The position numbers and the translations under genes were made by a program. Below the pieces are notes generated by a model that did not search any database, was not told where the DNA came from, and worked only from the letters and a program-made list of their open reading frames with translations. This document shows, in pieces, positions 8,495-33,698 of a stretch of 37,195 nucleotides of DNA (the stretch's first letter is position 1; each line of letters opens with the position of its first letter). Where the stretch lies: contig LJXT01000022.1 in NCBI GenBank assembly GCA_001314815.1, positions 1 to 37,195 of the forward strand, written 5' to 3'. The stretch is from Algoriphagus marincola HL-49. Lineage in GTDB: Bacteria > Bacteroidota > Bacteroidia > Cytophagales > Cyclobacteriaceae.

Positions 8495-9195
8495 TGGCAA
8501 ACGGTAATCTCCATTTTTTCCGTTCCATAGTCGAAGGTGACCATTTCTGGACTCAGGCCGGGAATCCCTAATCCTAGGCCTCTGAAAATAAAAATGATTC
8601 CCAAGATGACTCCCAAATAGGGGATCGCTTTTTGAAAATTCATCCGGGTTTTCACTGTGATTATCTGGCTTGAGAACATTAAAAACAGTAAGAGTGGGAT
8701 CGTACCTATTCCAAAGAAAAACATGTAAACTGCTCCCAAATAGGGGCTTTGCATGCCAAGTGCTGCGATGAGTGCCATGTAGACCATACCACATGGGAGA
8801 AGCCCATTGGCTAAGCCTGTAGCAAAAAAGGCAGGTTTTCCTCCTCGCTTTAGGAAGTAGGATAGCTTTTGTCTGACCCATCTTACCAAACCTGAAAAAA
8901 TGGATACTTGAAGCAGTTGCTCTGATTTTTTGTAATTGAGTGACAGTAAGACTAAAACTACCCCCATGGCAATAGAGAAACCTTGTTGGATTCCAGCCAA
9001 AGACATGGAAAAGCCAATAAATCCAATGAGAAGGCCTAAAAGGGCGTAGGTAAAACTTCTGCCAAGATTGTAGAGTATTTTATTCCAAATGAATCCGGAA
9101 TTACTGGCATTTCCCACGGCGAGAGCAATAGGTCCACACATTCCTATGCAGTGGAATGAACCTAGAAAACCCAAAAGAAATGCTGTCCAAATCAT
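8491..9195 (-). CDS. Sulfite exporter TauE/SafE-like (DsbD_2) membrane protein of the cbb3 cluster
   Basis: 234 aa from the ATG that overlaps the ccoH stop (ATGA, 4 bp). A start 23 codons upstream is possible but would lie inside ccoH. It is very hydrophobic, with about six TM helices. The N-terminal helix carries HCIGMCGP (H15, C16, C20) and a later helix carries LLPCGMVY, the paired-cysteine pattern of the DsbD_2/CcdA-like superfamily often annotated as TauE/SafE. It sits at the end of the cbb3 cluster, as in other Bacteroidota, where a role in copper handling or thiol transfer for oxidase assembly is likely. Actual sulfite export is doubtful. Confidence 0.82.
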   Translation of the reverse strand: MIWTAFLLGFLGSFHCIGMCGPIALAVGNASNSGFIWNKILYNLGRSFTYALLGLLIGFIGFSMSLAGIQQGFSIAMGVVLVLLSLNYKKSEQLLQVSIFSGLVRWVRQKLSYFLKRGGKPAFFATGLANGLLPCGMVYMALIAALGMQSPYLGAVYMFFFGIGTIPLLLFLMFSSQIITVKTRMNFQKAIPYLGVILGIIFIFRGLGLGIPGLSPEMVTFDYGTEKMEITVCH

Positions 9196-9620
9196 CAGAT
9201 TGTAATTTTCTTCTCTTGATAGAATTCTGTTCCGTTTTCGGTCCAAGTGAGTTGAACTCTCCAATATCCAGGTTTTAGGCTGGCGATGGATATTTGTTTT
9301 TTTCCTGACTCGATGATTTCTACCGGCAGGCTTTGGTCAAGGCTTACATCCGAAGGGCGGTAGAGATTTAGGTTCCCTTTTGCGCCGAGTGGTAGGTCTA
9401 GGATGACTGCTTTAGATTGGGAATCAAAAGCTAAAACTTCCCGATCAAGAAGGAGCGTGGAAGACTCCCTGTCGATCTGTTCTTGGTATTTGATCTCTGC
9501 TTCATAATAATTATCCCTTACCAGCTCAATCCCATCCATTCTTACAGAGATAATCACCATGGTCATGATGATCCCTATGAAAGCAATGATTGAAAGTAAA
9601 ATTCCTTTTCCCCAGTCCAT
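9195..9620 (-). CDS. ccoH: CcoH/FixH-like cbb3 oxidase assembly protein
   Basis: 141 aa with one N-terminal TM helix (~7-28), then an extracytoplasmic beta-rich domain that begins with the FixH-typical segment DNYYEAEIKYQEQID (~36-50). CcoH/FixH is needed for stable cbb3 oxidase assembly, where it interacts with CcoP. It lies 4 bp downstream of ccoG and overlaps the following gene by 4 bp, so it is part of the same transcript. Confidence 0.88.
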   Translation of the reverse strand: MDWGKGILLSIIAFIGIIMTMVIISVRMDGIELVRDNYYEAEIKYQEQIDRESSTLLLDREVLAFDSQSKAVILDLPLGAKGNLNLYRPSDVSLDQSLPVEIIESGKKQISIASLKPGYWRVQLTWTENGTEFYQEKKITI

Positions 9621-9624
9621 AGTA

Positions 9625-11043
9625 TTATTCTTTTGATGTAGGAGCCATAAAGCTCGTTTCTATTTTATCAATTTCTTTATCCGCATGCACCAGGGAAAGT
9701 TGAATTTCTTGCTGTGGGCGGTTTACGCTCTTTTGATCAGTGACGATGAAAAACCGTCCTTCCACTTTGGATTGAGGCTCAAGCACCCAATTTTGTCCGC
9801 CGACGATTTCTACATCCATTCCTTCTACCAAGGAAGAAAGATCCACCGTTTGAGGTTCGAAGGTTTTATTGATGAGGGTGATTTGATAGAGATTTGAAAC
9901 CGTACCATTATCCCGCATCTGATAGGTCATTCCAGGGAATCTTGTCACTGTAGCCTGAAGCTCATCACGAGTAGCAATCAATGATATAAATCCAGCCACC
10001 AAAATAACCAACACAACTGAATACGCTTTGACCCGGTTGGTGATTAGTTTCTGAAAGCCTTGTTGGATACTGTTTTCTGATGCATATCGAATAAGGCCTT
10101 TAGGACGGTCCACTTTGACCATTACTTCATCACAAGCATCAATGCAAGCCGTACAATTGACACACTCCATTTGTACTCCATTTCGTATATCAATGCCTGT
10201 CGGACATACCTGCACACAAAGATTACAGTCTACACAATCTCCAAGAGGAGTTTCTTCGACTTTATTTTTCCGAATCGGTCCTCTAGGCTCTCCCCGTACG
10301 TAATCATACATGACGTTGATAGAGTTATTATCCAAAAGCACTCCTTGTAGTCTACCATAGGGGCAGACCACTGTACATGCTTGCTCTCTAAACCAGGTGA
10401 AGACGAACATGAATATCCCTGAAAATGCAACCAAGCCAATAAAGCCGGCCAAGTTAGCCGTAGGTGGCTGGGTGACGATCTCTCTGACCTGATCGATTCC
10501 GATCAAATAAGCCATCACCAAATGTCCGATCAAAAGAGAGATTAAACCAAAAATTAGAAGCTTTGATCCTTTTTTGATAATCTTTTCACCATTCCAAGGC
10601 ATGGCATCCAAAGCACGCTGTTGATTGGCATCTCCTTCGATCATGTATTCGATCTTGCGGAAAACCATTTCCATGAAAAGTGTCTGGGGACAAGCCCAAC
10701 CACACCATATTCTCCCAAATATCACAGTAAACAAGATGATAAAGACAAAGAATATTAAGAGAAGGAATATCAATAAATGGGTGTCTTGTGGCCAGAAAAC
10801 CGCTCCAAAAATGATGAATTTCCGCTCAAAAATATTGAAAAGAAGCCAAGGTCTGCCACCTACCTGAATGAATGGACCGGCAAATAAAATAGCTAATAGG
10901 ATCCACGACAGATAGGTGCGGTATTTGTAAAAGAAACCCTTTACTTTTTTAGGGTAGACCCAGTTTCGTTTACCATCATCTTGGACAGTTGACAGGGAAT
11001 CCCGGAAAGTATTCGGATCGAGATGTGGATTTTTCTTTGCCAT
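9625..11043 (-). CDS. ccoG: Cytochrome c oxidase accessory protein CcoG (FixG/RdxA)
   Basis: 472 aa. Several TM helices surround WCGWACPQ (~113-120) and QACTVVCPYGR (~221-231). Two [4Fe-4S] ferredoxin motifs follow: C270-x2-C-x2-C-x3-C280-P and C294-x2-C-x2-C-x3-C304. The C-terminal third is an Ig-like extracytoplasmic domain. CcoG is reported to act as a cupric reductase supplying Cu(I) for the cbb3 CuB site. It lies 53 bp downstream of ccoP, and that gap holds a perfect 12-bp hairpin. Downstream coupling to ccoH is tight. Confidence 0.96.
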   Translation of the reverse strand: MAKKNPHLDPNTFRDSLSTVQDDGKRNWVYPKKVKGFFYKYRTYLSWILLAILFAGPFIQVGGRPWLLFNIFERKFIIFGAVFWPQDTHLLIFLLLIFFVFIILFTVIFGRIWCGWACPQTLFMEMVFRKIEYMIEGDANQQRALDAMPWNGEKIIKKGSKLLIFGLISLLIGHLVMAYLIGIDQVREIVTQPPTANLAGFIGLVAFSGIFMFVFTWFREQACTVVCPYGRLQGVLLDNNSINVMYDYVRGEPRGPIRKNKVEETPLGDCVDCNLCVQVCPTGIDIRNGVQMECVNCTACIDACDEVMVKVDRPKGLIRYASENSIQQGFQKLITNRVKAYSVVLVILVAGFISLIATRDELQATVTRFPGMTYQMRDNGTVSNLYQITLINKTFEPQTVDLSSLVEGMDVEIVGGQNWVLEPQSKVEGRFFIVTDQKSVNRPQQEIQLSLVHADKEIDKIETSFMAPTSKE

Positions 11044-22227: not shown

Positions 22228-23460
22228 TTAGGGTTTTAAAATTAGGGTTTTAGCCTTACAAACGTAATGCTTCTCAACTATTTTGCTCATGATTTGAATA
22301 TTTGGCAAGTCAGCAGCATCGGCTACATCAACCACTTTTCCTTTTTTCGTCAGGATCGAAATCCTATCCTTGGCTAGATATCCATAATTACTCAAAGTAC
22401 CAGCCGAGAAAAAATATGATAGATGTTCTTTGGGTATTTTAAGTTTTTTTAAGGTCTTTTCTTCAAGGGCTCCGATCTCTTCTTTTTTGAAGGGGGTATT
22501 GGAAAGCTGGATCTTGAAAAGATTTCTGGTCAAAAACATCCTGGAAATATTCGCCAAAACATAGTCAGGGGAGTTTTTCCATAGTTTGATTGCTCCCCAA
22601 ATATCCAAATCATCAAGCTCTAGAAAGATCCGTAGCAATTCCGGATTAGTCTGGAAGTCTGATTCAGTGATTTTGTGACCAAGCAAAAAGTCAAATTCAT
22701 CTGTGATCCCAAAGATTTTGTCCTCTGCCTTTAAGTCCTTTGCTCGCTGAATCAGGTTGATAAGCATTTTTTCAGCGCAGACTGTCGTCTTGTGCAGATA
22801 GACCTGCCAGTACATCAGTCGACGGGCACTCAGAAAGTTTTCGATGGAATAAATCCCTTTTTCTTCGATGACTATCTTGTCATTTTTGACATCCATCATT
22901 TTGATGATCCGATCAGCGCCGATAGTCCCTTCGGATACGCCAGTAAAAAAACAATCCCGCTGCAAATAGTCTAATCGATCAATGTCCAACTGGCTGGAAA
23001 CCAGCTGATGGAAGAACTTTCGCTCATATTGATTTTTGAAAATTTTCAAAGTGAGATCAAGTCTTCCTCCTAATTCTCGATTGAGCATTTCGATTATCAA
23101 AATCGAAAGCTTTTCGTGGGGAATAGATCGGAGAAGGCTGTATTCCAAAGCATGCGAAAACGGTCCATGACCGATATCATGCAGCAAAATCGCAATCAAA
23201 GTGGCTTCAAATTCCTCGTCGGATATTTCAATACCTTTGGTTCGGAGATGGTCTAGCGTCACATGCATGAGATGCATGGCACCCAATGCATGGTGGAATC
23301 GCGTATGTAAAGCACCGGGATAGACAAAATCAGTCAAACCCAATTGCTTGATCCGGCGTAATCTCTGAAAGTATGGGTGGTCAATGATCTCAAAAATCAA
23401 TTCACTTGGAATTGTAATAAAACCATAAACGGGATCATTGAGTATTTTCTGGCTTTTCAA
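22228..23460 (-). CDS. HD domain phosphohydrolase (dGTPase/SAMHD1-like)
   Basis: 410 aa. The HD-superfamily metal ligands are visible: H in RFHHALG (~56-57), H94-D95 in ILLHDIGHGPFSHALE, and a downstream D in LDIDRLDYLQRD (~163). The layout is that of the SAMHD1/dGTPase-like group, which hydrolyses dNTPs or related nucleotides; the substrate here is unknown. The only start with a full N-terminus is TTG at 23460, since an in-frame stop lies 15 bp upstream. It precedes lpxD in the same unit, which is common in Cytophagales, and is divergent from porX with only 58 bp between the two starts. Confidence 0.88.
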   Translation of the reverse strand: MKSQKILNDPVYGFITIPSELIFEIIDHPYFQRLRRIKQLGLTDFVYPGALHTRFHHALGAMHLMHVTLDHLRTKGIEISDEEFEATLIAILLHDIGHGPFSHALEYSLLRSIPHEKLSILIIEMLNRELGGRLDLTLKIFKNQYERKFFHQLVSSQLDIDRLDYLQRDCFFTGVSEGTIGADRIIKMMDVKNDKIVIEEKGIYSIENFLSARRLMYWQVYLHKTTVCAEKMLINLIQRAKDLKAEDKIFGITDEFDFLLGHKITESDFQTNPELLRIFLELDDLDIWGAIKLWKNSPDYVLANISRMFLTRNLFKIQLSNTPFKKEEIGALEEKTLKKLKIPKEHLSYFFSAGTLSNYGYLAKDRISILTKKGKVVDVADAADLPNIQIMSKIVEKHYVCKAKTLILKP

Positions 23461-23470
23461 GGAGGCCTGT

Positions 23471-23500
23471 TTTGTTTACCCAAAAGTAATTATAATTTTA
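23471..23500 (+). promoter_or_regulatory. Candidate porX promoter overlapping a divergent one
   Basis: TTTG (23471-23474), 18 bp, TAATTTTA (23493-23500). On the opposite strand TACTTTTG (23488-23481) matches TAnnTTTG exactly and would serve the HD-lpx operon. The two promoters therefore overlap back to back. Confidence 0.45.
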
Positions 23501-23518
23501 AAAGAATCGGACAACACT

Positions 23519-25075
23519 ATGAACCAAAATGCCTCCATCCTCTGGGCAGATGATGAAATCGACCTGCTCAAACCCCATATTCTTTTTCTAGAACAGAAAG
23601 GTTATCAGATCACCACGGTCAATTCGGGTGTAGATGCTATTGAAGAAATCGAAAAAGGGATGTTTGATGTAGTTTTTTTAGATGAGATGATGCCAGGAAT
23701 GACCGGATTGGAGACACTGCAGCAGATCAAGCAGATCAAGCCCCAGATTCCGGTGGTGATGATCACCAAGAGCGAAGAAGAGCATATTATGAATGATGCG
23801 ATAGGAGGGAAGATCGCTGACTACCTGATCAAGCCCCTTAATCCAAGTCAAATTTGGCTTTCAGTAAAGAAAATCCTTCAAAATCGTCAGCTGATCGATC
23901 AGAAGACTACGATGAATTATCAGCAGGATTTTATGAATATTTCCATGGCAGTTGGAGATGCAGTTGATCATGAAGACTGGGCTAATATTTATACCAAGTT
24001 GACCTATTGGGAGCTCCAAATCGACGAGACTGAGAATAAAAGCATGAAAGAAGTCCTAGAGACTCAAAAGTCAGAAGCAGATGCCAATTTTGCCCGCTTT
24101 ATCAAAGAGTCCTACCTGTCATGGATGGAAGAAAAAAATCAGGAAAAGCCCTTGATTTCTCCGAATGTGATGAGAAAAAAGGTTTTCCCAAGAATTCAAG
24201 GTGGCAAACCGCTATTTTTCATAGTCATTGACAATCTCAGACTGGATCAGTGGGAAGATATGGAATCCCTACTTACTCCTTATTTTTCCATTGCTGAGAA
24301 GGAAACCTATTACAGTATCCTACCAACGACCACTGCTTTTGCCAGAAATGCTCTATTCAGTGGGATGATGCCTTTGGATATGGCTAGATTTTACCCTCAA
24401 TATTGGGAAAATGAAGATACAGATGAAGGCAAAAATAACTTTGAAGAAGAGTGGATTAGGATCAATCTGGAAAAAAATCGGCAAAAAATAAGATTTTCCT
24501 ACACCAAAATTCTGCAGGCTGCTCATGGTAGAAGTGCCGTCGATCAGTTTCATACCATGTTGCAAAATGAGCTAAATGTCCTGGTATATAATTTTGTTGA
24601 TATGGTCTCTCATGCGCGGACGGATATGAAGATGATTCGTGAACTTGCTCCTGATGAATCCGCCTATCGATCACTTACCAAAAGCTGGTTTGAGCACTCG
24701 ACACTTTTTGAGATGCTAAAAAAAATTCAGCAAGCGGGAGCTGATGTAATTATCACCACTGATCACGGGACCAAGCGGGTCAACAAGCCCTATCGAATCA
24801 TCGGCGATAAAAACGTCACGACCAACCTCAGATACAAGCAGGGTAAAAACCTAAATTATGAGCCCGGGAAAGTTTTTGAGGTTTCGAAGCCTGAAGAAGC
24901 CAAACTACCCAAATTGAATGTTTCGAGTGCTTATGTATTCGCTGTGGAGGATTATTTCTTTGCCTATCCCAATAATTACAATTATTATGTCAATTTTTAC
25001 AAGGACACCTTTCAGCATGGAGGGATTTCTCTGGAAGAAATGATTGTCCCGATTGTCTATCTCAAATCAAAATAA
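23519..25075 (+). CDS. porX: PorX: response regulator with PglZ phosphatase domain
   Basis: 518 aa from ATG 23519; an upstream extension would run through the divergent promoter. The N-terminal receiver (~1-122) has D10-D11, phospho-acceptor D55 (FLDEMMPG) and K105. A helical linker follows, then a C-terminal PglZ/alkaline-phosphatase-like domain (~200-515), starting around FFIVIDNLRLDQWE, with TTTAFARNALFSGMMP and TTDHGTKR carrying likely Zn ligands. PorX works with the kinase PorY and sigma factor SigP to control type IX secretion, and its PglZ domain hydrolyses oligonucleotide or phosphodiester substrates. No porY is in the window; tsaE follows. Confidence 0.93.
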   Translation: MNQNASILWADDEIDLLKPHILFLEQKGYQITTVNSGVDAIEEIEKGMFDVVFLDEMMPGMTGLETLQQIKQIKPQIPVVMITKSEEEHIMNDAIGGKIADYLIKPLNPSQIWLSVKKILQNRQLIDQKTTMNYQQDFMNISMAVGDAVDHEDWANIYTKLTYWELQIDETENKSMKEVLETQKSEADANFARFIKESYLSWMEEKNQEKPLISPNVMRKKVFPRIQGGKPLFFIVIDNLRLDQWEDMESLLTPYFSIAEKETYYSILPTTTAFARNALFSGMMPLDMARFYPQYWENEDTDEGKNNFEEEWIRINLEKNRQKIRFSYTKILQAAHGRSAVDQFHTMLQNELNVLVYNFVDMVSHARTDMKMIRELAPDESAYRSLTKSWFEHSTLFEMLKKIQQAGADVIITTDHGTKRVNKPYRIIGDKNVTTNLRYKQGKNLNYEPGKVFEVSKPEEAKLPKLNVSSAYVFAVEDYFFAYPNNYNYYVNFYKDTFQHGGISLEEMIVPIVYLKSK

Positions 25076-26715: not shown

Positions 26716-27192
26716 TTAGCTGAGGAGATTTTGCCTTAAAAGAAACTCCAGTTGCTCATTTGCCTTAATTAGTGCTTGGGTGAGACGCTCATTTTCCCTG
26801 CGAAGAGAAAAGACTTCGTAGGCATTTTTGATGACAGTTCTTAGGTAGTCTTCCTCCCAGGGCTTGGTGAGGTAGTGGTAAACTTGACCTTTGTTGATGG
26901 CATCAATTACCGCTTGTATATCAGTGTATCCGGTTAATAGAATTCTTATCGGGCTTGGATAATGAGGGATGATAGACTCCAGAAATTCCACTCCTGTTTC
27001 TTCAGGCATCCGTTGATCAGTAATGATGATTTCAATATCTTCCTGTTCTAGGATTTTTCTTCCCTCTTCTCCTGAAATGGCAATGAAAATTTTGTAGTCC
27101 CTTCTAAATGTAGCTCGAAACGCTTGGAGGTTGTTTTCCTCATCGTCTACGTATAAAATCCGGATTTTTTCGTCTTTTTTGGTTTCTTCCAT
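26716..27192 (-). CDS. Stand-alone response regulator receiver
   Basis: 158 aa. The receiver spans ~10-130 with acidic pair D16-D17, phospho-acceptor D59 (IITDQRMP), the LLTGYTD strand and K110 in TKPW. A short C-terminal coiled coil follows and no output domain. It closely resembles the receiver of the 32607-33698 protein: both share YxDDExNNLxxFRAT, DQRMP, RILLTGY, AINKG and KPW. Output must be by protein contact, perhaps with the kinases encoded beyond 30503. Its stop abuts the stop of the convergent alanine dehydrogenase gene with no gap, and it is divergent from the ThiF-nitroreductase unit. Confidence 0.9.
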   Translation of the reverse strand: MEETKKDEKIRILYVDDEENNLQAFRATFRRDYKIFIAISGEEGRKILEQEDIEIIITDQRMPEETGVEFLESIIPHYPSPIRILLTGYTDIQAVIDAINKGQVYHYLTKPWEEDYLRTVIKNAYEVFSLRRENERLTQALIKANEQLEFLLRQNLLS

Positions 27193-27527
27193 TTTACACC
27201 CGATTTGGGTCCAGATATTTGAAACCGAAATAATTGTTTTTTTCGATCAAAAACAAACAAAGTGATCTGGATTTTCTACTATTCCTGAATTTCTTCAGTA
27301 TGCCAGAATTCATTTTTCATCAAGCTTGTCAATAACCTGCAGAGAATGAGAATGCTTGATTATATACTTTTTTCGAAAAGCTAAAATTCAAAATAAAAAC
27401 AAAATGCGTTTTTATTAATTATAGTGACTAATTATATGATTTATAAAAAAATAATTTAAAAATATATTTGAGAATTAAAATCAAAAACTAACTTTACAAA
27501 GCACATTACCCTATTTACGCCTATTTC
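27193..27527 (+). promoter_or_regulatory. AT-rich divergent leader with promoter of the ThiF unit
   Basis: 335 bases without a credible gene. TATATTTG (27463-27470) matches the -7 consensus TAnnTTTG, and TTTA lies 19 bp upstream as a weak -33 element; the inferred leader is ~50 nt. The stretch is strikingly A/T-rich and contains several A and T tracts that may bend DNA. Two open frames of 11 and 12 codons (from 27300 and just after 27340) are too short to call. No clear inverted repeat was found. Confidence 0.45.
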
Positions 27528-29798
27528 ATGCTATATTCACCCAAAATAGATCTGGAAACGTGGGCCTATCCTATCATCCTTGATCCAAGGATTTCTTCTC
27601 ATAAAGAACAACTTATAGAGTTGTTGGATGCTCCTCATATTCAGGTAGTTGATCAAATTGACTGCCAAGTGAAAGATTTGGTAAAGGCGAATAGTCCAAC
27701 TCGAACTTTTACAGAAATCGAACTGGATCTCGAGGTTGAAAACTTTTTTAGAGATAGGATTAAGGATGATTTTGGTAACTGGGTTTACTATCTTTGGAAA
27801 AATACAATTGTCCACTTATTGGAAGAAGAGGATTTCATTAAGATCAGGACGGTTAGGAATAATTACAAAATCACTCCGGAAGAACAATCCGAACTTGGAA
27901 CAAAGAAAATTGGAATTGTCGGGCTTTCAGTAGGGCAAAGTGTCGCGATTGCTATGGCTCTTGAGAGAAGTTGTGGGGAGATGCGTCTTGCAGATTTTGA
28001 TACACTGGAGCTCAGTAATCTCAATCGGATCAATGCTAGTTTGACTAGTTTGGGTCAGGAAAAAGTAGTGATCGCGGCAAGAGCGATATCTGAGATAGAT
28101 CCTTACCTAAAGCTTACACTTTATAGGGAGGGAATAACAGAAGAAAATGTTGACGACTTTTTGGATTCAGATGGTGGACTCGATTTGCTCATCGACGAAT
28201 GCGATAGCTTGGATGTGAAAGTTCTCCTCAGGGAGAAAGCTCGTGCAAAGAAAATTCCTGTTCTGATGGAAACCTCAGATAGAGGTATGCTAGACATTGA
28301 GCGTTTCGATTTGGAGCCTGACAGGCCTATTTTCCATGGGATGATGGGGAATATAGAAATGGGTTCTCTCAAGGGACTCAGTAATCAGCAAAAAGTAGGC
28401 ATAGGATTGAAAATTACCGGGATTGAGACACTTTCTCCCCGGATGAAAGCATCTCTTTTGGAAGTAGGACAGACCATTTCCAGTTGGCCACAATTAGCTT
28501 CAGCAGTTTTCTTAGGTGGAGCTTCAGTCGCACATGTCGGTCGAAAACTTCTCCTTGAAGATGAAGTGAAATCGGGAAGATTCTATGTGGACTTAGATGA
28601 ACTTGTCCAAATAGAAATGACTGAGGATGCTGCTCCATATCAATCAATACCTGTCAAAAACCGTGATTTCTTAGCCTCTTTACCCAATAATATCCTTCCT
28701 TCAGGGTACAAGCCATCAGAGGGAGAGCTTTTTGAAATGCTCTCTTTCGCCAATTTGGCGCCTTCCGGAGGAAATATTCAACCCTGGGTTTGGGTGATGG
28801 ATCAAAAAGGAGTTTTGCACCTTTTCCACGATAGAGAGCGAAGTCATTCGCTTTTGGATTACAAGGGTACTGGCTCATTGATCGCTTTTGGTTCCGCCCT
28901 TGAAAATTTGAGGATTTACTGTGGAAAGCATGGTTTTGAGGTTGATATAATTGATCAAGTCCAAAGCTTTGAAGATGATCTGATAGCTAGCATCAGGTTC
29001 GTCAGCAAACAAAATAAAAGTATTGATATTCCTCACCTTGATTTGTACGAAGGGGTAAAAATTAGATGTACAAATCGAAAAAACACTAAAAAGGAAAATC
29101 TGACTCCAGAACAAATTCAGATGGTTTTTGATCTGATACAATCAGAAGGTCTGAAGTTGGATTATCTGGAAGAGGAACAGGAACTAGAGAGGCTTTCAGA
29201 GATCTTGGGTGGAATGGATAGGATGAGGTTGTTTCATCAGCAGGGTTTGCAGGATTTCATTCATGAACTAAGGTGGAATGACAAAGAGGCAAAAGAGAGC
29301 AGTGACGGAATAGATATAGCCACTTTGGAACTTTCAGGGACAGAGAAAGCTGCAATGGGCTTGCTTCGGGATCCTCGCACAGTGAAGTTCTTCAGAAAGT
29401 TTTTGATGGGCTATGGCTTGACTAAAATCAGTCATTCGACCTTGATGGCAAGTTCTGCTATTTTCCTTTTGCAAAGCAAAAAATATACAGCCTCCTCTGT
29501 TTTGGAAGCTGGTAGAATACTACAGCGAATTTGGGTAAAATCTAATATGATGGGGATGAGTTTTCAGCCCGTTACCGCTTCGCTTTTTATTTTTCACAGA
29601 GTGAATCGCGAGAGGGATCATGGCTTTACTGAGAAGGAAGAGCAAATTATCAAAAAACACCATGAAACTCTCAGAAAATTATTCCAGATCGAAAATGGAA
29701 TGGAGGAAATTTTTATGTTTAGGCTAAATTTCGCAGGGGAACCAAGCATGCGTTCCTATCGCCGCGATGTAAGAGAGACCTTAATCATGCAGCAATAA
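27528..29798 (+). CDS. ThiF/E1-like adenylyltransferase fused to nitroreductase (Rv1355c-like)
   Basis: 756 aa. After a ~120-residue N-terminal region comes a ThiF/E1 domain (~125-330). Its nucleotide loop is GLSVGQ, D-x-D is ADFD (~155-158), the SNLNRIN segment (~163-169) and K179 match E1 ATP contacts, and D224 in DECDSLD is the expected catalytic Asp. No CxxC zinc knuckle is seen. From ~395 follows a nitroreductase-like flavin domain, with FANLAPSGGNIQPW (~407-420) binding FMN and GRILQRIWVKSNMMG near the end. The combination resembles the family named after M. tuberculosis Rv1355c (MoeY). E1 proteins adenylate a carboxylate; the substrate here is unknown. Its stop shares a base with the next ATG (TAATG). 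Confidence 0.82.
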   Translation: MLYSPKIDLETWAYPIILDPRISSHKEQLIELLDAPHIQVVDQIDCQVKDLVKANSPTRTFTEIELDLEVENFFRDRIKDDFGNWVYYLWKNTIVHLLEEEDFIKIRTVRNNYKITPEEQSELGTKKIGIVGLSVGQSVAIAMALERSCGEMRLADFDTLELSNLNRINASLTSLGQEKVVIAARAISEIDPYLKLTLYREGITEENVDDFLDSDGGLDLLIDECDSLDVKVLLREKARAKKIPVLMETSDRGMLDIERFDLEPDRPIFHGMMGNIEMGSLKGLSNQQKVGIGLKITGIETLSPRMKASLLEVGQTISSWPQLASAVFLGGASVAHVGRKLLLEDEVKSGRFYVDLDELVQIEMTEDAAPYQSIPVKNRDFLASLPNNILPSGYKPSEGELFEMLSFANLAPSGGNIQPWVWVMDQKGVLHLFHDRERSHSLLDYKGTGSLIAFGSALENLRIYCGKHGFEVDIIDQVQSFEDDLIASIRFVSKQNKSIDIPHLDLYEGVKIRCTNRKNTKKENLTPEQIQMVFDLIQSEGLKLDYLEEEQELERLSEILGGMDRMRLFHQQGLQDFIHELRWNDKEAKESSDGIDIATLELSGTEKAAMGLLRDPRTVKFFRKFLMGYGLTKISHSTLMASSAIFLLQSKKYTASSVLEAGRILQRIWVKSNMMGMSFQPVTASLFIFHRVNRERDHGFTEKEEQIIKKHHETLRKLFQIENGMEEIFMFRLNFAGEPSMRSYRRDVRETLIMQQ

Positions 29799-30499
29799 TG
29801 TTTACATTCAAAGCCTTCAGGGCTATCGATGAACCAGAAATATGTGATCAATTCATCGAGGGTCATGCAAATGTGCTGAAGGAGTATGGAGTAACCAAAG
29901 TAACTTCTTCTAATAACGACTGGAAGTATAACCCATATGTCTTTGTAGTAACTGTTCATGAGAACTCCACAGGAAATGTCGTTAGCGGCCTTCGAATACA
30001 TATAGCCTCAGAGGAATATCCTCTTCCTTTGGAAGGTGCGATTGCACCCGTAGATTCAAGAATTTTTGATCTTGTAGCCAAGTATAGAAATGCAGGTACG
30101 GGGGAGATTGGGGGGTTATGGAATAGTCGCGCGATTTCGGGTTATGGAATAGGGGCAATTTTTCTATCAAGGACCTCGCTTGTTATAGCGGAGCAATTAC
30201 AAGTTCCTACACTTTTTGCGCTATGTGCAGAATATACACTCAAACCTACTCTTCAAAAAGGATTTGAAATAGAAGAAGGGATCGGGAATAGTGGAACTTT
30301 TTTTTACCCAAAACTAGACTTGGTAGCAACATTGGCTATTCTGAGAGATGTGAAAAATTTACCTCATGCCCTTCCGGTGGAGCGGGATTTTATTTTAGAT
30401 CTAAGAAAGAACCTTGAGTGTACAAGAATGGAGGAAACTCTCAAGGGACCGGTAGAGATTACTTATCAATTGAAAATTAAAAGTCCTAATTGGAGATAA
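29798..30499 (+). CDS. GNAT-fold acyltransferase-like protein
   Basis: 233 aa, soluble. I do not recognise a named family. The order of conserved-looking elements fits a GNAT or LuxI/FeeM-like N-acyltransferase. A strand ending in SGLRIHIA (~63-70) is followed by EIGGLWNSR (~103-111), then GYGIGAIFLSRTSLVIAEQL as the acyl-CoA/ACP-binding loop and helix. LFALCAEYTLKPTLQKGFEI resembles the final GNAT strand and the GFE motif. If so, it would transfer an acyl group to an amine. It is translationally coupled to the ThiF-nitroreductase gene and 3 bp from the kinase gene, so all are in one unit. Confidence 0.6.
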   Translation: MFTFKAFRAIDEPEICDQFIEGHANVLKEYGVTKVTSSNNDWKYNPYVFVVTVHENSTGNVVSGLRIHIASEEYPLPLEGAIAPVDSRIFDLVAKYRNAGTGEIGGLWNSRAISGYGIGAIFLSRTSLVIAEQLQVPTLFALCAEYTLKPTLQKGFEIEEGIGNSGTFFYPKLDLVATLAILRDVKNLPHALPVERDFILDLRKNLECTRMEETLKGPVEITYQLKIKSPNWR

Positions 30500-30502
30500 T
30501 TT

Positions 30503-32614
30503 ATGTTGTTTACTATTATTTCTTCACTACTCTTACTTTTTGCTCAAAATCCGATTAAAATAACTGGTGAGAGTGTTTATTTGGATCGTTATGAATATTT
30601 GATTTTAGAGTCAGATGAAGATTTGTCCATAGAAAACGTGGTCAATCGAGATGATTTCTCCTTGCTTGATAATGAAAATAAAAATTTTGGAATTAATAAT
30701 AACGTAATATGGCTTAAGTACCAAGTAGAAAATCAGGGAGAAAATCTCGAGAAGTACCTTTACATAAACAATCCTTCTCTGGACAGCTTGGAGCTATTTG
30801 TGGTTCAAGATGGAAAAGTTCTTGACTCATACCTAGGCGGTCGATTGGTTGATTTTACCAGGAGGTCTATTCCATCAAAATCTATCATATTCAAAGTTGA
30901 TGTTCCAAATGCGGGGCATATTGATTTATATCTCAAAGTAAATAGCGTCAACAAAAAGATTATAACTTCATCAGTAGCATCAAGAGAATTTCTTGAAAGG
31001 CTAATTAATAGAGAAAACATCTTATTTGGGATTTTTACCGGGGTAATTGTTGGTTTATTCTTTTATAATTTATTTTTATTTTTATCAGTTAGGGATAAGT
31101 TATATCTAATTTATGTAATCCATACGGTATTAGTCTGGTTTGCTCAATCCTCCATATTGGGTTATACACAAGAAATACTTTGGCCTAATTTTATCTGGAT
31201 TAATTTAAGGGCTGGAGTTATTTTTTCATCCTTGGTAAGTATTGTGGGTATTTGGTTCCTAAGAGTCTTTCTATCTACCGATAAGTTTGTTCCAAAGCTG
31301 GACAGAGGATTTTATTTTATATACCTAGTGTATGCCTTTATCCTAGTCAATGCATTCTTCTTTTCCATTACTGTTAGTTATCAGACTTTATTGGTTACGC
31401 AGTCCATAGTGGTAATTTTTGTATTGCTTGTCGCATTTTCAATTTTAAAATTAGGCTATCGTCCCGCACGCTATTATTTGTTGGCTTGGTCTGTTTTTAT
31501 GCTCGGTATCTTCCTATTCGTTTTGAGCGAAATGGGTATTATCCCGACAAATGATCTGACTGCATATATCATGCCTTTGGGCTCTGCATTAGAAGTGGTA
31601 TTACTATCCTTCGCTTTGGCAGACAAAATCAATATCCTTAAGAAAGAGAAGGAAGAAGAACAGGCCGAGCGACTGAAAGTCTTGAAGCAAAATGAAGAAC
31701 TAGTCCGGGAGCAAAATTCCCTTTTGGAAGAAAAAGTCAGGGTTCGTACAGATGAATTAGAGCAAGCTTTGAGAAACTTGCAGAGCACCCAAAGTCAATT
31801 GGTCAGTCAGGAGAAGATGGCCTCTCTAGGTCAGCTTACTGCAGGTATTGCCCATGAGATCAATAACCCAATCAATTTCGTGAGTTCTAACATCACGCCC
31901 CTCAAGCGGGATATAAAAGACATTATGGAGGTAATTGATTTTTACCGAACAACCGGAGAATCGGAATTCGCTCCTGAGTCTAAAAAGAAGGCAGCCGATT
32001 TGGAAGAGGAGCTTGAGCTTAATTATGTGCTTGAGGAAGTAGATCAATTGCTGAAAGGGATGGAAGAAGGGGCAAAACGTACGGTTGAAATAGTCAAAGG
32101 GCTTCGACTCTTTTCTCGTGTGGATGAGCAGGATGTCAAAAAAGTGGATCTCCACGATGGTATCAATAGTACCATCATCCTTCTCAATAGTTCTATTCCA
32201 GGCAAAATTCGCATTGTGCGGGATTTTGGAGAGCTTCCAATGGTCGAATGCCTCGCCGGAAAGGTCAATCAAGTATTTATGAACATCATCAATAATGCCG
32301 TTCATGCCTTAAGTGATCATCTTGACACGATCAAAGATCCCAAAATTGAAATACGCACCCGCTCATTGGGGGATTCCGTGGTAGTGGAAATCGAAGACAA
32401 CGGACCGGGTATGCCTGAGCATGTGAAGGAACGTATTTTTGAACCGTTTTTTACCACCAAGTCGGTAGGGAGAGGTACAGGTTTGGGGCTTTCAATAGTT
32501 TATTCTATTATTGAGAACCATAAGGGCACGATGGAGGTAAATACCGAAGTCGGTCAGGGGACAACTTTTATCATTACGCTACCCACCCACCAAAGTAACA
32601 GCAAGAATGAATAG
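30503..32614 (+). CDS. 7TMR-DISM sensor histidine kinase
   Basis: 703 aa. A signal peptide (~1-15) leads to a jelly-roll extracellular sensor of the 7TMR-DISMED2 type (~20-165). Seven TM helices follow (~172-375), then a coiled coil (~378-435) and a HisKA domain with [19 protein letters not shown] (phospho-acceptor H451). The HATPase domain has N-box [10 protein letters not shown]1 DNGPGM (~632-637) and G2 GRGTGLGL (~656-663). DISMED2 domains are thought to bind carbohydrates or other small ligands. The receiver-kinase gene begins 8 bp before this one ends, so they are co-made partners. The first ~1 kb is clearly AT-richer than the kinase part. Confidence 0.93.
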
Positions 32615-33698
32615 CAGTAATATTCGGGTACTTTATATCGACGACGAGGACAATAACCTCAAATCGTTCCGCGCTACCCTTCGAAAAGACTTTAAGATTT
32701 TTACAGCCATCGATGCTTTCGAAGGATTAAAGATCGTTCAGGAAGAAGAAATTCATGTCGTCATTGCTGACCAGCGGATGCCGGGAATGACAGGTACAGA
32801 ATTTTTTGAGAAAATGATCGAAATCAATCCGGACCCTGTGCGGATTTTGCTGACAGGCTATTCAGATATTGCCTCCGTCATCGATGCGATCAATAAAGGT
32901 GAGGTCTATCGTTTTATAGATAAGCCTTGGAATATTGAGCAGATCAAAAATTCGATCAAAAACGCTGCGGACATCTTTTTCATGCGGAGAGAGTTGAAGG
33001 AAAAAAACATCAAACTGGAGAAACTCCACTCAGAGATGAACCAGTTTGTCTACAGTCTTTCCCATGAGCTTAGAGGGCCTTTGATGAGTATTTCGGGCGT
33101 TTCTAAGTTGGCCAAAATGGAGATTAAAGATCCGCATGTCTTAGAGTTCTTTGATATGATCGATACTGCTACCACCAAGTTGGATGACTTTATTTATAAA
33201 ATGCTGGATTTTTATCGATCTACTAAAATTGATCACAAAATTACCGATATCAATTTTAAGGAAGTGGTCAATCAACAAATGGAAGCCTATAAAGCTAAGT
33301 TTGATTTGACACACTTTCATGTAGAATTACAGGTGAGCCAGGAGGAACCTTTTTTCTCAGACGATTCTAAAATTCGAGTGATTTTAAATAATCTCTTCTC
33401 CAATTCGGTTCAGTTTATGAAAAACGAGCATGGAGAAAAGCGAATCGCACTTACGATAGATGTGCGAGATGGTGAAGCTATCGTCATGCTCGAGGATAAT
33501 GGTATCGGCATCGAAGACCGTCATCATCCGGAAGTATTTAATCTTTTCACCCGCGCAACGCAGCAAAATGTAGGCACTGGTTTAGGCCTGTACATGGTCA
33601 AAGAGGCAGTGGAGCAATTGGGCGGAAAGGTAGAGTTAGAATCTATTTTAAATGAGGGAACTACGGTCAGAGTGGTGCTTCCTTCTTTGAATTCGTAA
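32607..33698 (+). CDS. Receiver-histidine kinase hybrid
   Basis: 363 aa, cytoplasmic. The receiver (~6-125) has D12-D13, phospho-acceptor D55 (IADQRMPG) and K106. A coiled coil (~127-145) leads to a HisKA domain with [15 protein letters not shown] (H153). The HATPase has its N-box ([10 protein letters not shown]), G1 DNGIGI and G2 GTGLGLYMV. Receiver-first hybrids usually take phosphate from another kinase and pass the state on through their own transmitter. The partner is most likely the overlapping 7TM kinase. No DNA-binding output lies in the unit, so the final effector may be the stand-alone receiver at 26716-27192 or lie elsewhere. Confidence 0.92.

Follow-up and report, generated by a model that had tools for sequence, protein, structure and literature searches.

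The described enzyme systems closest to the locus analysed here are TrzAS (Rv1356c-Rv1355c), TyzACB and OxzAB, in each of which a ThiF-oxidase fusion is likewise encoded next to an amino acid N-acyltransferase (PMC12856293, PMC10404671). In the account given in PMC12856293, TrzS (Rv1355c) cyclises and desaturates N-acyl-tryptophan (N-acyl-Trp), yielding N-acyl oxazolones, compounds that are open to attack by acids and alcohols. A corresponding pair is found in a contig of Algoriphagus marincola HL-49 (GenBank assembly GCA_001314815.1, LJXT01000022.1, positions 1 to 37,195 of the forward strand; this whole stretch of 37,195 nucleotides is referred to as the window), where gene 1 (27528-29798, +) was called as a ThiF-oxidase fusion of the Rv1355c family and gene 2 (29798-30499, +; 233 residues) as an N-acyl amino acid synthase-like (NAS) acyltransferase. 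Unlike in TrzAS, TyzACB and OxzAB, the enzyme pair is here tied to a seven-transmembrane (7TM) receptor histidine kinase of the 7TMR-DISM type (gene 3, 30503-32614, +; 703 residues), a receiver-HisKA-HATPase kinase (gene 4, 32607-33698, +; 363 residues) and a divergent receiver-only protein. The locus is read as a self-sensing, most likely cell-to-cell, module in which a self-made pheromone, predicted to be an N-acyl amino acid or oxazolone, is paired with its receptor kinase; this reading is given a probability of roughly 0.77, and the decisive evidence for it is the co-variation of synthase and sensor.

With regard to signalling, the joint polymorphism found here resembles that of ComQXPA of Bacillus, in which the signal-making genes and the receptor kinase are reported to be jointly polymorphic and to define communication groups, or pherotypes (PMC4408185). 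ComX is a modified peptide, whereas the product here is predicted to be an acyl amino acid or oxazolone, with other enzymes for its synthesis and a 7TMR-DISM protein as its receptor. The variable region of ComQXPA ends within comP. Receptors of the RetS type share the DISMED2 ectodomain and 7TM architecture with gene 3; RetS is not known to be encoded beside a synthase, whereas changes in the sensor half of gene 3 go together with changes in the neighbouring synthase. FeeM and the LuxI-type acyl-homoserine lactone (AHL) synthases have a fold in common with gene 2, which itself gave no autoinducer-synthase family match. In LuxM/LuxN and AinS/AinR an acylated signal is read by a membrane histidine kinase, with a different synthase chemistry (homoserine lactone) and a different receptor. 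LuxN is treated in PMC8895600.

Exchange of gene 2 and the sensor half of gene 3 in Algoriphagus

Comparison of the window with the locus L044 gave a DNA identity of 95.0% upstream, 53.3% over 29798-30499, 49.2% over 30503-31580, 92.7% over 31581-33698 and 95.6% downstream, while identity to L043, which is of the same type as the window, was 92-97% in all five segments. The identity drop delimits an exchanged cassette (29798-31600, +) consisting of the whole of gene 2 and the sensor half of gene 3, with edges near 29770-29800 and 31580-31640, the 3' edge lying inside gene 3 at the sensor/kinase boundary. The same local drop was found in the pairs L043/L044, L040/L046 and L050/L053, and the proteins of L043 and L044 are 97-100% identical in the other domains, with 46% identity in NAS and 31% in the sensor. 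Within Algoriphagus, gene 2 and the sensor half alone of gene 3 swap as one cassette.

Types were assigned by single-linkage grouping of 52 Algoriphagus loci, L055 and L091 being excluded as they are cut by contig ends. NAS and sensor gave the same three groups (26, 19 and 7 loci) at cut-offs of 0.55/0.42 and 0.52/0.40, with NAS identities of at most 48% between and at least 57% within types and sensor identities of at most 35% and at least 42%, respectively. A tree of three flanking genes (50 rows, quick method; these genes are linked and may recombine in their own right) requires 11 type changes where the minimum is 2, and its starred branches force at least seven for type 1. L043 belongs to type 1, L044 to type 2 and L084 to type 3. 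Type 3 consists of exactly the seven Algoriphagus loci without the oxidase domain. The type 3 locus L085 and its type 1 neighbour L059 are 91-96% identical in the kinase cores and receiver, 56% in ThiF, 42% in NAS and 32% in the sensor, and the NAS of L085 shares 87% identity with its counterpart in L090, a distant locus of type 3.

Co-variation of synthase and sensor

Gene 1 served as the query for collecting the Algoriphagus loci, which, as neither gene 2 nor the sensor was used, are unselected for the NAS-sensor comparison. Loci L002-L021, retrieved by a gene 2 search and so biased towards its type, were excluded from the co-variation tests in the genus, the exceptions being L002 (the same record as L043, which it duplicates), used in the typing and the tree, and L019, used in the class-level test. 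Among the 43 Algoriphagus loci with all domains, NAS and sensor distances correlated with r = 0.94, and the partial correlation given ThiF, oxidase, both kinase cores and the receiver was also 0.94 (1000 permutations, maximum 0.17). Two sets were used for replication, namely a second genus with the code g178 (13 of 15 loci, L146 and L133 being dropped) and 24 loci of other genera, and the sensor-NAS partial r was 0.59 and 0.67, respectively (reached by 0 of 300 permutations). The sensor-oxidase partial r was 0.71 in g178, 0.34 in the other genera and 0.29 in Algoriphagus (0 of 300 permutations in each set), and that between the sensor and its own kinase core 0.13, -0.06 and -0.23, in the same order. 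The sensor thus tracks the synthase and the oxidase, not its own kinase domain, as would be expected of a receptor for a product to which both activities contribute. The link between oxidase and sensor is hard to attribute to a single contiguous tract: NAS sits between the two, and the plain oxidase-NAS correlations (0.32 in g178, 0.61 in other genera and 0.29 in Algoriphagus) fall below the NAS-sensor correlations (0.68, 0.83 and 0.94).

The class-level test covered the 61 of 70 loci with all four domains. The co-variation of synthase and sensor half is independent of the kinase core and is stronger in the genus than in the class as a whole.

Conservation of the module across Bacteroidota

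In a phylum sample, NF005901 was matched at E <= 1e-40 in 11 of 395 genomes, and NAS-like and 7TM-kinase-like genes were adjacent to it in all 11. A ThiF profile found the gene in 70 of 395 genomes of the class Bacteroidia (38 of 196 genera), and the 69 loci besides the window were fetched. A 7TM kinase lies beside the ThiF gene in 61 of these (62 of 70 with the window counted), which span 18 of 20 family codes and 33 of 38 genus codes. Four of the eight remaining loci (L107, L120, L133 and L151) are cut by contig ends, whereas in L141, L142, L149 and L152 the absence is real at the locus. The genome of L142 carries NAS, 7TM kinase and receiver together at another site (L156), those of L141 and L152 gave no NAS match, and L149 consists of ThiF and a weak NAS without the kinase. 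In L152 a single open reading frame (8672-9781, -), matched in Pfam by ThiF and HATPase_c, fuses the first ThiF half to the core of a histidine kinase, with a receiver gene adjoining; it has the appearance of a remnant left by a deletion within the module, or of an error in the assembly. A first-pass annotation of the window, made from its sequence alone, had named the scattering of the enzyme genes without kinases as the outcome that would speak against a common unit; the neighbourhoods gave the opposite, with 62 of 66 testable class loci (the window counted) retaining the 7TM kinase.

The gene order is NAS-ThiF in L033, L034, L035, L037 and L094 and ThiF-NAS in the remaining complete loci, and the grouping of enzymes and kinase therefore survives rearrangement. 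The genome of the window (3.8 Mb) has only three matches to the 7TMR-DISM_7TM family, so that chance adjacency of a 7TM kinase and a ThiF gene is improbable, with an expected frequency below about 1% per genome. A single-sequence model, with which the open reading frame lengths agree, found the oxidase part in 46 of the 69 class loci; unlike TrzAS, the other 23, including the remnant L152, are without it by this model. Within Algoriphagus, gene 1 was found in 54 of 72 genomes (49 of 50 among those of good quality), 52 of 53 loci have the ThiF gene grouped with a gene-2-like gene and a 7TM-kinase gene, the exception ending at a contig edge, and the same flanking genes are present in 50-51 of the 52 typed loci. 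The four-gene set is a conserved module whose grouping is beyond chance, and it displays the feature of two-component quorum sensing that a signal synthase is conserved beside a membrane receptor kinase.

The enzymes encoded by genes 1 and 2

Gene 1 matches the NCBIfam model NF005901 ("Rv1355c family") over residues 12-754 with an E-value of 1.9e-224 and 747 bits against a cut-off of 476; in Pfam, ThiF was matched (E 8.9e-20) and the nitroreductase match fell below cut-off. Residues D226 and R565 correspond to the tested catalytic residues D217 and R540 of TrzS and are conserved, the mapping being made through the Mycobacterium dioxanotrophicus homologue L155, in which the spacing is 323 as in TrzS. 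By sequence, gene 1 would thus provide the ThiF cyclase and FDO-type oxidase of the TrzAS/OxzAB oxazolone pair. A role in E1/ubiquitin-like conjugation or CBASS-like defence was rejected, as PADLOC returned only partial E1-E2 matches to the ThiF stretch (best 41.4 bits) and the full-length Rv1355c family match also speaks against it; no E2, ubiquitin-like or JAB partner was found by Pfam and NCBIfam among genes 1-4 or the divergent receiver.

Whole-genome searches for gene 1 covered Bacteroidota. Among plasmid records, gene 1 was found in Actinomycetota only (13 records), and no histidine kinase is annotated directly beside the homologue in the three of these 13 regions that were inspected. 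A Streptomyces plasmid (L154:5830-7628) carries a ThiF-only relative of gene 1, 47.2% identical over the matched part, followed by a GNAT gene, with no histidine kinase annotated directly beside the ThiF-only gene; the NAS profile gave no match to the GNAT gene adjoining the Streptomyces ThiF.

No family above cut-off was found for gene 2 in Pfam or NCBIfam. A Pfam scan extended to an E-value of 1 gave DUF6978 (0.086) only and no autoinducer-synthase family, and thus no membership of a LuxI-type family, and the best match of the gene 2 profile to PDB sequences had an E-value of 0.54. The best fold match of the gene 2 structure model was FeeM, with AHL synthases among the next, and identity in these structural alignments was 9-13%. 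Gene 2 was assigned to the GNAT/FeeM/AHL-synthase fold by fold alone, because the sequence searches gave nothing above cut-off, and the model suggests that it is the adjacent amino acid N-acyltransferase, as in the TrzAS/OxzAB pair. Gene 2 of the window and its counterpart in A. marincola DSM 16067 (L002) share 99% identity. In one locus (L106:11422-12872) a tandem pair of NAS genes precedes a single 7TM kinase.

The kinases and receivers

Gene 3 was matched in Pfam by 7TMR-DISMED2 (E 7.1e-21), 7TMR-DISM_7TM (E 6.7e-47) and HATPase_c, with HisKA just below cut-off (24.2 against 26.9 bits). The N-terminal 400 residues were modelled as a leader helix, a beta-sandwich and a helical bundle with a predicted local distance difference test (pLDDT) score of 77.0. 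The beta-sandwich ectodomain matches the periplasmic domain of RetS and the 7TM matches of the model were poor; no ligand pocket is claimed for gene 3, because only the RetS ectodomain was matched well. Gene 4 was matched by receiver, HisKA and HATPase domains. A receiver-containing gene of more than 300 residues lies near the ThiF gene in 54 of 69 class loci. In L039, L101, L103, L104, L113 and L119 a receiver protein of 455-476 residues, without a match to the gene 4 kinase core, stands in place of gene 4, that of L039 having the architecture receiver-PAS-HisKA_3-HATPase.

The divergent receiver-only response regulator (26716-27192, -; 158 residues) was matched by Response_reg (E 1.3e-18) and by no output domain in Pfam. 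A short receiver-only gene is found within 9 kb of the ThiF gene, in any orientation, in 61 of 69 class loci and 52 of 53 Algoriphagus loci, and is divergent and upstream in most loci and elsewhere in some. Outside Algoriphagus, an additional small receiver-only gene follows gene 4 in L033 (12663-13085), L034 (12326-12733), L038 (7592-7990, -) and L019 (13910-14344).

Locus layout and promoter-like element

The open reading frame calls place the four genes at 27528-33698 with junctions of -1, +3 and -8 bp between successive genes, exactly as given in the first-pass annotation, and an AT-rich leader, also described there, separates the divergent genes (27193-27527; 335 bp, 26.0% GC against 41.7% for the window). 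Its description of an E1-nitroreductase, a GNAT-like enzyme, a membrane sensor kinase and a receiver-kinase likewise holds by Pfam, NCBIfam and the gene 2 model, and the divergent receiver-only gene is a fifth part beyond that four-gene unit.

The leader carries an element resembling the Bacteroidota promoter consensus, namely TTTG (27467-27470), a spacer of 18 nt and TAACTTTAC (27489-27497), located 30 nt 5' of the gene 1 start codon. Leaders were extracted from 51 loci of the genus, one exceeding 400 bp was excluded, and the pattern TTG-N(16-24)-TAnnTTT[A/G] was present in 40 of the 50 examined, compared with a mean of 3.3 and a maximum of 9 in mononucleotide shuffles. Co-transcription of genes 1-4 is likely, because this conserved promoter-like element precedes gene 1 and the genes after it either overlap (by 1 and 8 bp) or lie 3 bp apart; separate promoters, which the first-pass annotation had set against a common unit, would be less expected with such an arrangement. 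Directly 3' of the promoter-like element lies an ATCACCC-like box (27503-27512), a possible operator or 5' untranslated region element, which is also found in other leaders of the genus: its 8-mer TATCACCC occurs in 20 of the 50, and the window carries the variant ACATTACCCT. Upstream of the module, the window encodes a full-length PorX, the type 9 secretion response regulator (23438-25075; NF052313, 815.8 bits against a cut-off of 300), and its gene was found in 50 of the 52 typed Algoriphagus loci.

Proposed mechanism and alternative explanations

In the proposed mechanism, gene 2 would select and join an acyl group and an amino acid, and gene 1 would adenylate the resulting N-acyl amino acid, close the ring and, if it has the oxidase domain, yield an N-acyl oxazolone by desaturation. 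Either this product or the N-acyl precursor would exit the cytoplasm or sit in the membrane and bind the ectodomain/7TM half of gene 3, the kinase of which would phosphorylate the receiver of gene 4, the divergent receiver-only protein or both, and thereby act on downstream targets, presumably in dependence on cell density. Lineages would use different signal types, with synthase and receptor half being exchanged together. The suggestion of the first-pass annotation that a self-made acylated or oxidised amino acid signal is encoded with its sensor is supported by the family chemistry of gene 1, by linkage in 18 of 20 family codes and by the co-replacement of synthase and sensor half.

Several observations weigh against this pheromone-receptor reading. 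NAS also tracks the kinase core, with a partial r of 0.38 in the other genera and 0.20 in Algoriphagus. At class level, NAS and sensor have a partial r of just 0.41 (the permutations reaching at most 0.18), next to 0.37 for NAS and kinase core, and nearest-neighbour agreement, an uninformative measure here, does not single out NAS-sensor (28 of 61) from sensor-ThiF (34 of 61). At cut-offs of 0.58/0.45 the NAS and sensor partitions differ, with three and four groups. In the loci with NAS-ThiF order, NAS is 62-73% identical (apart from L035) and the sensors 29-40%, so that divergence may be faster in the sensor, or NAS may not be what determines the type. No output regulator or DNA-binding output domain was matched by Pfam in the module, genes 3 and 4 included, and the NAS profile matched the hypothetical protein beside a Rhodococcus TrzS homologue weakly (E 0.002, probability 13.8%), in a comparison that contained no verified TrzA.

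Further points of this kind come from the literature. Clusters for thalassotalic acid, kyonggic acid and stieleriacine likewise contain genes for NAS, ThiF and a nitroreductase, and as described in PMC12479983 no oxazolones were seen from them, some clusters of this composition being known there by N-acyl (dehydro)tyrosines. The end product of the present module may accordingly be an N-acyl (dehydro)amino acid instead of an oxazolone. In the tyz pathway, product identity was apparently set by the cyclase and oxidase, not by the acyltransferase, according to PMC10404671, and in the trzAS work tryptazolones are reported as more abundant inside cells, with acyl-Trp mainly in the supernatant (PMC12856293).

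The last of these reports also favours the best surviving alternative, an unlikely one, in which the 7TM kinase would gauge its own cell's membrane-lipid or redox-active product and so control synthesis with no cell-cell communication. Enzymes and kinase in one apparent operon behind one promoter-like element would fit such autoregulation. However, sharply bounded types that switch repeatedly between close relatives fit communication groups better than homeostasis, and the exchanged half of gene 3 is, as judged from family and model, the periplasmic and membrane part. It is very improbable that the product is instead a growth inhibitor whose matched sensor confers self-protection or kin recognition, the swapping then reflecting toxin-immunity competition: toxin-immunity pairs do also swap together, but the swapped receptor half here feeds a conserved kinase and receivers, not a protective protein. 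For N-acyl tyrosine derivatives, PMC12856293 reports that they can be antimicrobial, in favour of such antagonism. Least probable of all is mere linkage, with the 7TM kinase sensing an outside cue that regulates the enzymes, since, although gene 2 and the sensor half are adjacent in Algoriphagus and one recombination tract moves both, the tract ends within gene 3, where sensor and kinase meet, the oxidase domain is tracked by the sensor without being adjacent to it, and the linkage persists through rearranged gene order.

Significance

The suggestion of the first-pass annotation that no described system has this content does not stand for the enzyme pair, which is known from TrzAS and OxzAB, and stands, in the papers found, for the combination with kinases and its co-variation. 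The term "histidine kinase" has no occurrence in the main texts of PMC12856293 and PMC10404671, and no description linking these enzymes to kinases was found in a literature search that covered few subscription papers and no preprints. All parts belong to known families or folds and signalling by a synthase and a receptor kinase is known, while the predicted signal class and receptor are new. It is also somewhat favoured, with less confidence than the pheromone-receptor reading of the locus itself, that the module represents an undescribed and widespread family of quorum-sensing systems in Bacteroidota, with N-acyl oxazolones as pheromones (saturated azlactones in loci lacking the oxidase), 7TMR-DISM kinases as receptors dedicated to them, and alternating communication types that persist across species through exchange of the cassette of synthase and receptor half. 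This looks like an undescribed chemical language in a major bacterial group. By analogy, a signalling role of these enzymes may be general, because those of Actinomycetota adjoin cyclic di-GMP (c-di-GMP) genes, as reported for trzAS of Mycobacterium tuberculosis (PMC12856293) and as found in L153, where a GGDEF gene lies near a TrzS homologue.

PMC12856293 describes what oxazolones do physiologically as "a major unresolved question", and the module offers a candidate dedicated receptor and a testable role for them. Natural chimeras are at hand in L043 and L044, which differ mainly in the cassette within the compared stretch, and the candidate communication system extends over at least 33 genus codes of Bacteroidia. 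If the proposal is true, it would assign the first receptor and the first physiological role to oxazolone lipids.

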